DNA of 64,000 nucleotides from Nitrospira sp. (GTDB lineage Bacteria > Nitrospirota > Nitrospiria > Nitrospirales > Nitrospiraceae): the NCBI GenBank assembly GCA_015709715.1, contig CP054184.1, positions 1,163,001 to 1,227,000 on the forward strand, read 5' to 3'. The notes under the pieces are model-generated. The model was not told the DNA's origin. It was given only the letters and a program-made list of their open reading frames with translations, and made no database searches. The translations under genes and the position numbers were made by a program. Each line of letters opens with the position of its first letter. The first letter of the stretch is position 1. Below are positions 7,470 through 54,297 of this stretch, piece after piece.

Positions 7470-7502
7470 ACCGAGTGGAACCGAAATGAAGTGCGGATTG
7501 TC

Positions 7503-8620
7503 TTACAACAGGGGGGTAAAACGCAAGCCGTGCGCCTCGGCCACTCCCTGACACGTCACCTGACCGTTGAAGACGTTCACGCCTTTGGCCAAGCCAGGGT
7601 CTGAGCGAATCGCTCGCTCCACCCCGTCGGACGCCAGGCGGACTATATAGGGCAATGTCGCGTTGGTCAAGGCCAAGGTCGAGGTATGCGGCACAATGCC
7701 GGGCATGTTCGTCACACAATAGTGCAGCACCCCGTCGACACGATAGACCGGATCCGAGTGGGTCGTGGGTCGCGTGGTCTCGCAACAGCCGCCTTGATCG
7801 ACCGCCACGTCGACGATGACGGATCCAGGCTTCATCCGGGCGACCAGCCCTCGCGACACGATTTTCGGAGCACGCGCCCCCGGCACCAGCACCGCCCCGA
7901 TCACGAGGTCGGCCTCGAGGACCGCCTGTTCAATGGCAGACTCCGTGGCCGCGCAGGTGGCGATGCGCCCACCGTACAAATCATCCAACAACCGCAAACG
8001 CTCGATATCCAGATTGATGACCGTCACCCTCGCGCCCACCCCCACGGCAATTCTTACGGCCGATGTCCCGACGACGCCGGCTCCCAACACGACCACGTGG
8101 CCAGGCTGGACTCCGGGCACCCCAGCCAGTAACACCCCTCGTCCTCCTTGCGCCATTCCCAGGTAATGGGCACCGACCTGCACCGACAGACGTCCCGCGA
8201 TTTCGCTCATGGGCCGCAACATGGGCAGACTCCGGTCGCGCGCCTCCACCGTTTCGCCTCCACCGTTTCATAGGCAATGGCGGTCACATGAGACGCCATC
8301 AAGCTCTTCGTCAACTCCGGCAGGGAAGCCAAATGCAAATAGGTGAACAAGATCTGGCCGGCTCGCAGAAGGCCGCACTCGCTCGCTTGCGGTTCCTTTA
8401 CTTTGACGATGAGTTCGGCTCGACGAAACACCTCGTCTTTCGAAAGGCCGGCCTCGGCGCCTGCTTGCCGGTACTCCTCATCCGAAAAACCGCTCCCCTG
8501 GCCCGCCGATGCCTCGACCAGGACCTGATGCCTCGCTTGCCGCAACACTCGCACGCCAGCCGGCGTCAGGGCGACCCGATGCTCTTGATCCTTGACCTCT
8601 TTTGGCACCCCGATAAGCAT
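7503..8620 (-). pseudogene. ald: Alanine dehydrogenase, frameshifted by a 14-bp tandem duplication
   Basis: Alanine dehydrogenase interconverts L-alanine and pyruvate with NAD. The 5' part (8620 down to about 8270) encodes MLIGVPKEVKDQEHRVALTP... up to AIAYETVEA; the 3' part encodes RDRSLPMLRPMSEIAGRLS..., the Rossmann motif [13 protein letters not shown] and the rest to the C-terminus. Between them the 14-base unit GAAACGGTGGAGGC occurs twice in tandem (8242-8269), shifting the frame. Removing one copy restores a 367-codon gene, the family's normal length. The ATG at 8620 has AAGGAGG. As read, only a truncated protein of about 137 residues is made. A sequencing or assembly error cannot be excluded. 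Confidence 0.9.
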
Positions 8621-8776
8621 CCTCGCCTCCTTCCCACACCTCGATGGACTTATGGGTTCATTATACATGGAACAGCCTCAGCGCTTGGCGCCCGTCGGCC
8701 ACCTTGCGACGGCAAAGATCAGTGCGGTAAGATCCGCCCTCCATCGATCACCCTGTCGGAGAGGAGCACTGCACGC

Positions 8777-9145
8777 ATGGATGCCGGATCCTGCAACGCT
8801 TGTCATGCCACGGGCACGCCCCTGATGAAACTGTCGTTGGGCAAGGACTTTTTCGGTCGCACCTATGATCGGCTGTCGCCCGCGTCGGATCAGAGCCCGA
8901 AGTGGTATTGTGCCCCCTGCTCGATGATGAAGCATCTCCAGCGAGACTTCCGCGATATCCGCGCCGAGTTCGACAAGCTGAGCGCAGGCCAGGCCTCGGC
9001 ATTATCGGAGCCGGAAGCGAAGCAACGGGCTCAGCTTCGCCTGCAGGAAATCGCCGCCATCGCGCACGCACAAGCCGCGGCATCTCCGCTCCTCAACTCA
9101 ACGGATGTTGCGCAGTTGCTCGTGCAGTTCCAGGCCCGGACTTGA
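8777..9145 (+). CDS. CxxC-motif protein, first gene of a redox cassette
   Basis: A 122-residue protein starting MDAGSCNACHATGTP. Two cysteine pairs (CNAC near residue 6 and CAPC near residue 45) could hold a zinc ion; CNACH also formally matches the CxxCH heme motif, but there is no signal peptide. The rest (55-122) is a charged helix with Gln/Ala-rich tail, probably coiled coil. GAGGAG lies 8-10 bases upstream. It is followed after 38 bases by a [2Fe-2S] ferredoxin. Family not recognised. Confidence 0.7.
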   Translation: MDAGSCNACHATGTPLMKLSLGKDFFGRTYDRLSPASDQSPKWYCAPCSMMKHLQRDFRDIRAEFDKLSAGQASALSEPEAKQRAQLRLQEIAAIAHAQAAASPLLNSTDVAQLLVQFQART

Positions 9146-50193: not shown

Positions 50194-51489
50194 ATGGCTC
50201 GCATCCTTGGATCACCGCTTTCACTTCTTCTGGCCGGATGGATCTGGCTGCTCTTATCGACCTTACTGGGCTGGGCCACCTTTCTCGGCATCGTGCGCGG
50301 GGCTCCGCTGCCCTATGGGTTTCGCCTGTTGCACGTGCACGGCGCGCTGGTCGGGGGTCTGCTGCAGCTGCTCCTGGGGTTGGCTCTGACGGTGGTCGAG
50401 TTGTCCGGCCCCGATTCGAAACGACCCAAACAACCCGGACTGTTCCTGGGCTTGAACCTCGCCGTCCTGGCCTTGGCCGTCGGGACGTGGCTGCGCCAAC
50501 CGAACCTGACCCTGCCGGCCGGCCTCGGGCTTCTATTCCTGTTCGCACCCGTCACCCGGCGGTTGTTTCTCGCCCTCGCCACACGTCCGGACCGTACTCC
50601 ACTGGTCACCTTCTTTTTCGGATTTGCATGTGCGGGCCTGTTCGGCAGTCTGGTCTTAGGAGAATTGCTCGCCGGGGGCTGGGTTCCCATTGAACATGGC
50701 AGACTCCGTTTAGGTCATATCCATGGGAGCTTGCTGATCTTTTTCACACTCGCGGTCGTCGGCTCCCTGCAATTGGCGCTGCCCGCCTTATTGCATCAGC
50801 CGCTCTACAGTGCGCGCCTGGGCCAGGTGGCACTCCTCCTCTTACCGGCTTGTGTGGCAGGACTGCTCACGGGGTTTCTGCTGTCCTCCATCCCCATCCA
50901 GCTGGTGGCCGGCGGCTTTCTCGTGGCCACCTTGGCCCTCTATGCGGCGAACCTGTTCCTCACCTGGAAACAAGCCGGTCAGCCGGGCTCGGCCGGAAGT
51001 GATCACCTCATGACGGCAGTCTTCTTCCTCCTCCTTTTCACGATCCTGGGCATCGCCGTGGGGATCAATTCGCTGTGGACGCCACCGGCCATGCCCTATG
51101 GCACACTCCATCTGGTCGCCTATACGCACAGCGGATTCTTGGGCCTGTTCGTCCAAGCGATGGTCGGTGCGCTCTCTTATGCCTTGCCCGCCCTGCTGGC
51201 CGCGCAGCGGGTAGTTAGCCACAAGAAGCGGTCGGTCTACCACGAACGCCTGGCTCACACCATGGATCGCTGGCGGGCCGTGCAGGTCGCCGGCCTGAGC
51301 TTCGGCACTTTGGGGTTGGTGCTGGTGGCGTCGGTCATTTGGAATGTCCCTCTCTCATCGCCCTGGGTTCAAAGCCTCACCTGGATCAGCTTGAGCCTGT
51401 TATTGGGCCACATAACGTTGGTCACGATGAAAATCGTCCAGGTGGTGGGAACCTATCCGACGAGCGAACGAGACCACAAGGGTGCCTGA
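50194..51489 (+). CDS. Heme-copper-oxidase subunit I-like membrane protein
   Basis: A 431-residue protein with about 12 hydrophobic segments. Histidine motifs in helices (LLHVHGAL, LGHIHGSLL, HLVAYTHSGFLG) resemble those of subunit I relatives, and could ligate low-spin heme. The HPEVY and paired HH motifs needed for a catalytic oxidase site are absent, so it is unlikely to be a terminal oxidase. NnrS-like or a heme-sensor role are alternatives. It follows thiD after six bases and precedes an alpha/beta hydrolase. Confidence 0.7.
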   Translation: MARILGSPLSLLLAGWIWLLLSTLLGWATFLGIVRGAPLPYGFRLLHVHGALVGGLLQLLLGLALTVVELSGPDSKRPKQPGLFLGLNLAVLALAVGTWLRQPNLTLPAGLGLLFLFAPVTRRLFLALATRPDRTPLVTFFFGFACAGLFGSLVLGELLAGGWVPIEHGRLRLGHIHGSLLIFFTLAVVGSLQLALPALLHQPLYSARLGQVALLLLPACVAGLLTGFLLSSIPIQLVAGGFLVATLALYAANLFLTWKQAGQPGSAGSDHLMTAVFFLLLFTILGIAVGINSLWTPPAMPYGTLHLVAYTHSGFLGLFVQAMVGALSYALPALLAAQRVVSHKKRSVYHERLAHTMDRWRAVQVAGLSFGTLGLVLVASVIWNVPLSSPWVQSLTWISLSLLLGHITLVTMKIVQVVGTYPTSERDHKGA

Positions 51490-52292: not shown

Positions 52293-52476
52293 CCGCAGGG
52301 TTCTTCCTGCACCCCGCGCCCCAAGTTGTGCACTCAGTGCCAGAATGAACGCAGCCGGCTATCCCTGATGAGTTGAAATAGCCGTCTCACGCGGGTTTCT
52401 GTCGCTCATTGCTCACATGCGATCTGGCATACCGGTTGCTCTCCTCCTTGCCTGCGTTTTTTCTGGAGGAAGTACC

Positions 52477-54297
52477 ATGAAAACTCCTACAAGCTTGTTC
52501 ATGTTCAGCATTGCTGGTTGTATCAGTATCACGCTGACGCCGATCGGCATGGTCTCTTCTGCCCATGCCGCTGATGCCACAACCACCAGTCTGAGCCTGT
52601 TGCAACAGCCGGCGCTCGCCGATGCCGTGGCCAAAGCCACCGCCGCCGGCACCACCGCCGTCCTTCCGACTCCGGCTGCTTTGGCCCTTGTGGCGCAAAA
52701 GGGTCAGACCGCCGTTGGAACCATCACCCTGCACAAGGGCGGCACCGACCGGCACACCTACTACCTCAGTACCAATCAATCCTGGGTCTGGATGAATCCG
52801 CCCTACGGCAGCACCCAGACCATCACGACCGAAGTCGATCAATTGGTCATCACGGCCCAGACGGCCAACCTTCCCATCGGGACCCATAGTGCCGTCGTCT
52901 ACGTCGTCGACTCCGGACCGAACAACTTTACGAACATGCTGCGCGTCCCGGTCACCCTGACGGTCACCGCCGCCCAGCAGGCCACAGCGCCGCCCCCGCC
53001 GCCGGCTTCGCCGCCCCCTGCGCCCGTGACTCCGCCCCCGGCTCCCGTGGTTCCCCAGCCGACCCCGGTGGCCGTGACACCCCCGCCGCCGACCCCGGTG
53101 GCCCCGCCGCCGGCACCTCCGATCACTTCGACGGGAATTGCGTCAAACCCGATGGCCTTGGCCTTGACGGCCCCCAAAGGCCAAACCGCCATGGGCACTC
53201 TGACATTACGCAAGGGCGGAACGGCGCAGCATTCCTATTACTTGAGCACCAATCAATCCTGGGTCTGGATGAATCCGCCCTACGGCAGCACCCAGACCAT
53301 CACGACCGAAGTCGATCAATTGGTCATCACGGCCCAGACGGCCAACCTTCCCATCGGGACCCATAGTGCCGTCGTCTATATCGTTGAATCGGGGCCGAAC
53401 AACTTTTCAAACATGCTGCGCGTCCCGGTCACCCTGACGGTCACCGCCGCCCAGCAGGCCGCAGCGCCGCCCCCGCCGCCGGCTTCACCGCCTCCTGCGC
53501 CCGTGACTCCGCCCCCGGCTCCCGTGGTTCCCCAGCCGACCCCGGTGGCCGTGACACCCCCGCCGCCGACCCCGGTGGCCCCGCCACCGGCACCGCCGGC
53601 ACCTCAACCCAGCGTGTCGTCGCCGATCCAGGCCACCCCGACCGCGCTCGCCCTGACCAGCGCCAAAAATGTCGGGACCATCTCGCTGAAGAAGTCCGGG
53701 ACGGCTCAGCATTCCTACCTGATCAGCGCCAGCCAGTCATGGATTTGGATGAATCCCCCCTATGGCAGCACCCAAACCATCACAACCGAAACGGACAGCA
53801 TCACCGTCACGGCCTATACGGCAAGCCTTCCGGCTGGGACCCATTCCGGTGTCATCTACATCGTGGAATCGGGGCCGAACGGATTCACCAACACCCTGCG
53901 CATCCCTGTCACCGTCACGGTAAGCTCCACTCAGACAGCGGATAACAACCCGACGGCACCCAGCCAACCAACGGCTACGACTCCCCCGCCGCCACCGCCA
54001 AGCCCAACGGCGCCTCCTCCGGTCGCCAACGCCCCGGGGACGACGACTCCGCGGACAGCTACGGCCACGGTGAGTTGGAACGCCAACAGCGAGCAGGACT
54101 TGGCCGGGTATCGTGTCTATGTCGGGACACGATCCGGCAGCTATAACTTCGCCGGTCCCTTCGAAGTCACAAAGGGGACGAGCTTCACGGTGCCGAACCT
54201 GCCGGTAGGGACGACCTACTTCTTCGCCGTCTCGGCATTCGACAAATCGGGTAATGAAAGCGCGAAATCCGTCGAGGTCAGTAAGAGCCTGTTCTAA
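52477..54297 (+). CDS. Secreted three-repeat protein with Pro-rich linkers and C-terminal fibronectin III domain
   Basis: A 606-residue protein with a signal peptide (ending SSAHAAD). Three homologous domains of about 90 residues (Trp-containing TNQSWVWMNPPYGST near residues 99, 258 and, as ASQSWIWMNPPYGST, 418) resemble BACON/Ig-like beta-sandwich repeats. Domains 1 and 2 are separated by Pro-rich linkers (about 168-215 and 327-372). Residues 529-606 form a fibronectin type III domain (YRVYVGTRSGSYNF). The ATG at 52477 follows GGAGG. Domains 1 and 2 with their linkers are almost identical in DNA, offset by 477 bases. Likely a surface or adhesive protein. Confidence 0.88.
   Translation: MKTPTSLFMFSIAGCISITLTPIGMVSSAHAADATTTSLSLLQQPALADAVAKATAAGTTAVLPTPAALALVAQKGQTAVGTITLHKGGTDRHTYYLSTNQSWVWMNPPYGSTQTITTEVDQLVITAQTANLPIGTHSAVVYVVDSGPNNFTNMLRVPVTLTVTAAQQATAPPPPPASPPPAPVTPPPAPVVPQPTPVAVTPPPPTPVAPPPAPPITSTGIASNPMALALTAPKGQTAMGTLTLRKGGTAQHSYYLSTNQSWVWMNPPYGSTQTITTEVDQLVITAQTANLPIGTHSAVVYIVESGPNNFSNMLRVPVTLTVTAAQQAAAPPPPPASPPPAPVTPPPAPVVPQPTPVAVTPPPPTPVAPPPAPPAPQPSVSSPIQATPTALALTSAKNVGTISLKKSGTAQHSYLISASQSWIWMNPPYGSTQTITTETDSITVTAYTASLPAGTHSGVIYIVESGPNGFTNTLRIPVTVTVSSTQTADNNPTAPSQPTATTPPPPPPSPTAPPPVANAPGTTTPRTATATVSWNANSEQDLAGYRVYVGTRSGSYNFAGPFEVTKGTSFTVPNLPVGTTYFFAVSAFDKSGNESAKSVEVSKSLF
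52771..53594 (+). repeat. Near-identical 477-base tandem duplication inside the secreted protein gene
   Basis: Copy A (from about 52771) and copy B (from about 53248) run parallel for some 345 bases, covering a domain and its Pro-rich linker, with only a handful of differences near 52900 and 52980. The period is 477 bases (159 codons), so the frame is kept. A third, diverged copy follows. Confidence 0.85.

Follow-up and report, generated by a model that had tools for sequence, protein, structure and literature searches.

Recurrent intragenic gene conversion acting on an old triplication very probably explains the mosaic structure of gene A, which encodes a Pro-rich repeat protein of Nitrospira sp. 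composed of three BACON_2-like units and a C-terminal fibronectin type III (FN3) domain. Units 1 and 2 of this gene are almost identical over much of their length and diverged over the rest, and the same division of the unit into a position-specific and a homogenised part recurs in other species of the genus. The gene is located in what we call the window, the whole stretch of 64,000 nucleotides analysed here (contig CP054184.1).

Layout and probable export of the gene A protein

The repeat reported in an initial annotation of this DNA is real: three domain-plus-linker units are contained in one open reading frame of a single-contig genome, and the Pro-rich linkers, the diverged third copy and the FN3 end are all present (Table 1). 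The protein was also described there as Trp-rich, which does not hold. With 96 Pro and 7 Trp in 606 aa, it is Pro-rich.

Table 1. Position and character of the gene A features (window coordinates).
Feature	Position	Strand	Description	Basis
Gene A, open reading frame	52417-54297	+	single frame holding all three repeat units	
Gene A, preferred start ATG 52477	52477-54297	+	606 aa; three BACON_2-like units and C-terminal FN3	
Signal region (predicted)	52477-52572	+	type I signal peptide with AxA end (29-31) or lipoprotein signal (G14-C15)	alignment
Unit 1, BACON_2-like	52663-52983	+	position-1 type	profile match
N block of unit 1	52663-52770	+	position-specific, unhomogenised; counterpart 53140-53247; 42/108 differences	tree groups by position
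Putative exchanged tract I, copy 1 side	52771-52901	+	identical to 53248-53378; 0/131 differences	
Patch with position-specific differences	52902-52932	+	between both exchanged tracts; 8/31 differences	
Putative exchanged tract II, copy 1 side	52933-53108	+	unit end and linker; pairs with 53410-53585; 3/176 differences	
Pro-rich linker 1	52984-53136	+		
Unit 2, BACON_2-like	53137-53460	+	position-2 type	profile match; AF2 model
Pro-rich linker 2	53461-53625	+	homogenised with linker 1 apart from tail	
Unit 3, diverged	53626-53940	+	position-3 type; 3 aa shorter near start	
Pro-rich linker 3	53941-54054	+		sequence
C-terminal FN3	54055-54270	+	E 8.2e-7; 29.6 bits against a cut-off of 25	Pfam PF00041

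The conserved start of the gene is probably the ATG at 52477 rather than the opening of the reading frame at 52417, because a GGAGG sequence precedes this ATG and the N-terminal residues M1-K2, G14-C15, A29, A31 and A32 are invariant in 16/16 aligned sequences. Judged by this N terminus, the protein is probably exported, in agreement with its earlier description as secreted. Since both G14-C15 and A29-x-A31-A32 belong to the invariant residues, a lipoprotein and a plainly secreted protein may both be compatible with the N terminus, and Cys15 might be lipidated. At the other end of the protein, the final residues SKSLF (54280-54294) are likewise invariant in 16/16 gene A proteins, and the proteins of paralogue B and gene C described below end similarly. 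This ending may belong to a sorting or assembly signal common to these proteins, beyond the FN3 fold alone.

Mosaic identity of units 1 and 2

The repeat copies lie at 52678-52977, 53155-53454 and 53635-53934, spaced by 477 and 480 bases, with 87% identity over 300 nt for the second copy and 66% for the third. Over the whole unit, units 1 and 2 are 84% alike and share an identical tract of 131 bases; unit 3 is 66-68% alike to the others. Comparison of 52771-53117 with the sequence 477 bases downstream revealed only 12 differences in 347 bases. Thus, the near-identical domain and linker that had been reported do exist, but the tract covers approx. 347 and not 477 bases, and the first ~36 codons and the linker tail have diverged strongly. 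Likewise, position 52771, from which the duplication had been reckoned, is indeed the first base of the identical tract, but it lies inside the domain (unit residue 38) and not at a domain boundary.

When the same mismatches were shuffled 2000 times, the longest run averaged 25.3 bases and never reached the 131 observed, and all 20 fourfold degenerate sites in the region of tract I (unit codons 32-75) are identical. The linker tail at 53109-53136 differs from its counterpart at 13 of 28 bases. The first 32 codons of the two units are only 59% identical, and these codons are nearer to those at the same position in another species than to each other. Because the 31-base patch between the tracts keeps its positional difference, at least two exchanged tracts appear to border an unconverted stretch in this strain. 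The residue preceding SGP/YGP is D in 20/22 position-1 units as against 4/22 position-2 units.

Age and distribution of the three-unit gene

Homologues of gene A were found by protein search in all 29 genomes sampled from the genus, with one genome per species, and 22 of them hold an intact gene with exactly three units (L007-L028), among them single-contig genomes other than that of the window (G001, G015 and G021). Of the remaining genomes, G020, again a single contig, has four units, of which the second and third match at 100% along their full length; G006, G022 and G023 have two units, with an N in the linker of G023; in G009 and G010 the gene is split at contig ends; and in G002 only the signal-like and FN3 parts, with zero recognised units, were found. 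Units shorter than 96 aa, e.g. the second unit of L032, were left out as partial. Change of copy number, which had been proposed for this gene, is thus supported elsewhere in the genus, by the four units of G020, and for this strain it is at most a possibility.

The genomic neighbourhood is conserved as well. The order thiD, 431-aa protein, hydrolase, gene A, FGE-sulfatase and methyltransferase was found in 19/19 named loci (L037-L055), partially where contigs end; these loci overlap the 29 genomes in part, and the other 4 of the 23 loci match the FN3 domain only. The 19 repeat-protein loci comprise 17 from Nitrospira, one from Nitrospiraceae and one from Nitrosospira, and include Candidatus Nitrospira defluvii (FP929003.1). 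Three-unit genes in 22/29 genomes together with neighbours kept in 19/19 loci indicate that the three-unit layout is older than most of the sampled species. In a search of the phylum, 26/295 genomes matched at E <= 1e-6: 16 belong to the genus of the window and matched strongly, and 10 others of its family matched weakly (E 3.0e-7 to 6.5e-12). A plasmid collection contained zero matches to the gene A protein.

Two observations concern the surroundings of the gene. The 431-aa reading frame between thiD and the hydrolase gene (50194-51489) has counterparts with 59-66% identity over 394-437 aa in 17/19 named loci and zero Pfam or NCBIfam matches at E <= 1. In the draft genome G016, a second gene of the family (L042, ~7483-8840 of JAHFEW010000075.1) adjoins a normal gene A. 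It has a similar signal region and FN3 end, no BACON unit is recognisable in it by eye, and it is surrounded by pieces resembling the neighbouring hydrolase, FGE-sulfatase and methyltransferase genes. The arrangement is best read as a tandem segment duplication, and G002 may hold a similar unit-less gene.

Homogenisation of units 1 and 2 across the genus

In the 22 three-unit genes, mean identity over codons 36-50 is 0.94 between copies 1 and 2 of one genome, 0.87 between orthologous copies 1 and 0.87 between copies 1 and 2 of different genomes. Over codons 12-26 the corresponding values are 0.61, 0.72 and 0.59. Hence, over the first ~30 codons a copy resembles its orthologue more than its partner copy in the genome, and this relation is reversed from about codon 30. 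In 19/22 genes the divergence of copies 1 and 2 has its change-point within codons 27-37, with P <= 0.035 in 17 of these (200 shuffles).

Fourfold sites gave the same picture. Copies 1 and 2 agree within and across genomes at 0.392 and 0.370 of these sites in the N block, at 0.760 and 0.560 in the middle of the unit and at 0.674 and 0.429 in its C part, and orthologous copies 1 agree at 0.483, 0.593 and 0.436, respectively. When L028 is left out, the within- and cross-genome values are 0.351 and 0.363 (N block), 0.746 and 0.562 (middle) and 0.655 and 0.438 (C part). Because the N-block values without L028 do not differ in favour of the same genome, exchange in the N block appears to be zero. 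In the middle of the window gene, units 1 and 2 share 20/20 fourfold sites, and a unit from any other genome agrees at 14/17 at best.

Trees are consistent with these results. For the rest of the unit, 9/22 genomes have their copies 1 and 2 as sisters, compared with 1/22 for the N block, and position labels change 12 times and twice, respectively. Similarly, copy 2 of the same genome lies nearer to copy 1 than every orthologous copy 1 does in 1/22 genes for the N block, 9/22 for the middle and 6/22 for the C part. Swapping labels within genomes gave means of 14.9 changes for the N block and 17.9 for the rest of the unit, and the observed numbers were reached by 0/500 and 2/500 swaps; the corresponding figures were 8/500 for the middle alone and 0/500 for the C part alone (10 changes). 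Since copies 1 and 2 are not sisters in 13/22 genomes even outside the N block and positional signal persists to some degree in the rest of the unit, homogenisation appears to be episodic and incomplete.

The test for long identical runs between copies 1 and 2 was not significant (P > 0.05) in 6/22 genes and uninformative in one more, the copies of which are identical, and it was also significant (P < 0.05) for copies 1 and 3 in 14/22 and for copies 2 and 3 in 10/22. Because this test ignores the conservation of the domain middle in all copies, we put more weight on fourfold sites and trees. By these measures, silent sites included, units 1 and 2 show concerted evolution in their middle and C part and none in the N block, and unit 3 shows it weakly.

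For unit 3, fourfold sites of the middle agree within and across genomes (without L028) at 0.528 and 0.489 with unit 1 and at 0.503 and 0.462 with unit 2; in the C part the values are 0.386 and 0.375 with unit 1 and 0.433 and 0.349 with unit 2. Only in L028 does unit 3 resemble another copy in its genome more than it resembles the best-matching orthologous unit 3. Unit 3 thus seems to join in the exchange weakly. The N blocks of units 2-4 in G020 are of type 3. Units 1 and 2 of G021 do not differ anywhere and, by inspection, have type-3-like N blocks. Exchange of whole units would fit both genomes, and in G021 replacement of a whole unit would fit better.

Paralogues of gene A

Two paralogues in the same genome share the BACON_2-like unit or units and a C-terminal FN3-like region ending in S(K/R)S(L/I/V)(F/Y) with gene A. 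The FN3-like end of B was assigned by its similarity to gene A; PF00041 matches only A and C of this genome at E <= 0.01. Paralogue B differs from gene A in its other linkers and in its two to four units across the genus. In the genome of the window (G000:C1:627366-628910, L006), units 2 and 3 of B are identical at every unit base. The 21 B loci comprise 10 with three units, one with four, eight with two, several of them in drafts, and two that are split in two frames; the B-like matches of G004, G008, G009 and G025 were left out. One of the genes read as two frames (G015:C1:855000-858700, L076) contains an in-frame TGA and may be a pseudogene or reflect a sequence error. In the 10 three-unit B genes, units 2 and 3 are 75.8-100% alike, with 100% in three genes, that of the own genome included, and in six of the ten they are nearer to each other than to any unit of another genome. 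Paralogue B thus appears to behave much like gene A. Paralogue C (G000:C1:3277228-3277740) consists of a single BACON_2 unit and fn3, without a Pro linker. Because this relative has a single unit, it suggests that export signal, BACON_2 and FN3 make up the basic form of the family.

Origin of the mosaic

Taken together, the comparison shows that the layout with three BACON_2-like Ig domains on Pro-rich linkers ahead of the C-terminal FN3 domain is old, and that units 1 and 2 have been repeatedly homogenised within genomes. The homogenised part begins near codon 30 of the unit and reaches the domain end, in the window gene including most of the linker, and the first ~30 codons of the units keep their positional type. 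We presume recombination of the RecA type, acting between tandem copies that lie 477 bases from each other. If exchange is mostly non-reciprocal, i.e. gene conversion, the number of units would stay at three, and an occasional unequal crossover would alter it, as in the four units of G020. The exchanged tracts would make copies 1 and 2 of this strain resemble fresh duplicates. Recombination between the copies, already suggested in the initial annotation, is the best account of their near-identity.

Unequal crossing over combined with selection for three units could produce a mosaic as well. The number of units varies, with four in G020 and two to four in paralogue B, and type-3 units have come to occupy further positions in G020 and, as judged by inspection, in G021. 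However, tracts on both sides of an unconverted patch together with the kept N-block order 1-2-3 would need several matched crossovers, and gene conversion would take fewer steps. With a sample of one genome per species, crossing over is the less likely of the two, though it keeps a real share of the probability.

A recent in-frame duplication of one domain and linker in this strain, the initial reading, is much less probable. Such an event resembles what is seen in the spacing of 477 bases and the 12 differences in 347, and duplications of this kind seem to happen in relatives, since G020 has a unit 3 that is 100% identical to its unit 2. But a recent duplication would copy the whole 477-base period, and a fresh copy of the whole unit is disfavoured because 42 of the first 108 unit bases and 13 of the 28 bases of the linker tail differ. 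Moreover, most sampled genomes of the genus (22/29) have three units, and the N blocks group by position across species, by which a recent duplication is already largely refuted.

Purifying selection for an identical function of units 1 and 2, without any exchange of DNA, has still less to commend it. In its favour, no part of the domain is better conserved than the unit middle, which holds for every copy including the third, and around WMNPPYGS the within-genome identity of copies 1/3 and 2/3 is 0.86. Silent sites speak against it by showing the same pattern, with 20/20 fourfold sites identical against a best value of 14/17 elsewhere and 0.760 against 0.560 in the pooled data. An assembly or collapse artefact is hardly credible: among the three relatives with two units, one draft consists of 40 contigs and another of 80, and G023 (6 contigs) carries N in its linker, but the window belongs to a one-contig genome of 4,156,062 bases with an estimated completeness of 99.97% (tool estimate), its copies differ at dozens of sites, and other single-contig genomes (G001, G015, G021) also have three units. 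A simple assembly duplication is unlikely because the copies differ at dozens of sites in a one-contig genome.

Fold and possible role of the protein

The initial annotation expected a BACON- or Ig-like fold, and structure prediction bears this out. The AF2 model of unit 2, computed with 40 related units, is a nine-stranded sandwich with a mean pLDDT of 85.9. With this model, the first-ranked Foldseek match was the GH115 glucuronidase 4zmh_B (E 1.9e-5). ASH/PapD-like, ciliary and MSP domains came next, and lower in the ranking stood the GH5 xyloglucanase 3zmr_A (E 1.9e-4), whose part matching the gene A unit we take to be its BACON domain. VIA gave Z 13.7 to the ciliary chain 7n6g_4C and 12.4 to the ASH/PapD-like 6fvi. 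At the sequence level the match is borderline: the whole gene A protein reached 25 bits with BACON_2 (PF19190) against a cut-off of 25, with unit 3 as its best stretch (residues 404-467 of 626). In a six-frame search of the own genome, gene A stayed under the cut-off with 20.3 bits, and B (25.4) and C (44) passed it. Single units matched at E <= 0.01 in 17/41 cases of alignment A1, which holds 41 of the 55 unit stretches found, window unit 2 not being among the 17. NCBIfam contained nothing near a cut-off for gene A, and among PDB chain sequences there were zero relatives of the unit profile at E <= 1. We regard the unit as a predicted BACON_2-like Ig sandwich, a fold common to many families. 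A viral fold library yielded 16 matches at E <= 0.001, including Ig-like parts from glycoside hydrolases and tail proteins of phages; these were taken as reflecting the common fold and not as a sign of phage origin.

BACON domains, as proposed in PMC11216935, may act as membrane-bound spacers for other domains. With the BACON and BACON_2 proteins of that comparison system (PF13004, PF19190), which come from Bacteroidota, the protein of Nitrospira shares the Pfam BACON_2 match and the Ig-like sandwich. It differs in having zero glycoside-hydrolase modules, and none of the five neighbouring reading frames scanned matched one. The loop reads SW(V/I)WMNPPYGSTQTI in gene A, compared with WLSLSPTSG in paralogue C. 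We identified neither an adhesin domain nor a surface anchor in the gene A protein, and the full-length AF2 model (pLDDT 59.6, with low-confidence linkers) is too poor for domain packing. The surface or adhesion role suggested earlier is plausible. Most likely, though at about even confidence, the protein would serve outside the cytoplasmic membrane as a spacer or as a multivalent adhesion or matrix protein. More tentatively, and with the odds against it, the unit may be functionally split, with a position-locked N block (strands 1-3) and a homogenised face from WMNPPYGSTQTI to the linker that binds a repeated ligand multivalently. If so, the N blocks would be kept distinct by each unit's own neighbour or place in an assembly, and recombination would keep renewing the shared face while selection rejects N-block exchange.

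Relation to known systems and significance

Gene A is a clear example of a known process and not of a new one. The Periscope Proteins (PMC8201768, PMC9704523) are bacterial surface proteins with tandem repeats of variable length for which intragenic recombination has been proposed. Like them, gene A encodes one chain of individually folding tandem domains, some copies of which have high DNA identity over part of their length, and its repeat number differs between relatives. Unlike them, it has mostly three units (2-4) on long Pro-rich linkers in place of a demonstrated rod, identity is partial and mosaic, and the variation known here is between species. In the spider aciniform silk gene AcSp1, intragenic concerted evolution holds the repeats >98% alike (PMC3933166). 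Repeats of one gene are kept alike by the same kind of process in gene A, with the difference that the N block stays position-specific and homogenisation reaches only a part of every unit. What sets gene A apart from these systems is that its units are consistently divided in this way, the N block being locked to position and the remainder homogenised.

A literature search joining Nitrospira with the BACON domain gave zero matches, which does not prove that the protein is absent from print. Papers on Nitrospira and fibronectin type III included none about the gene A protein, judged by title and the start of the abstract, and none of the matches listed for tandem repeats, gene conversion or concerted evolution dealt with Nitrospira.

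Near-identical adjacent domains need not mean a new duplication, and the analysis of gene A corrects a natural misreading of this kind. The gene A family offers a clean natural experiment, in which it is possible to tell exchanged from protected stretches of a repeat and in which a paralogue behaves similarly. Nitrospira are major nitrite oxidisers that grow as aggregates. A genus-wide and probably exported repeat protein is a reasonable candidate for studies of aggregation and matrix formation in these bacteria.
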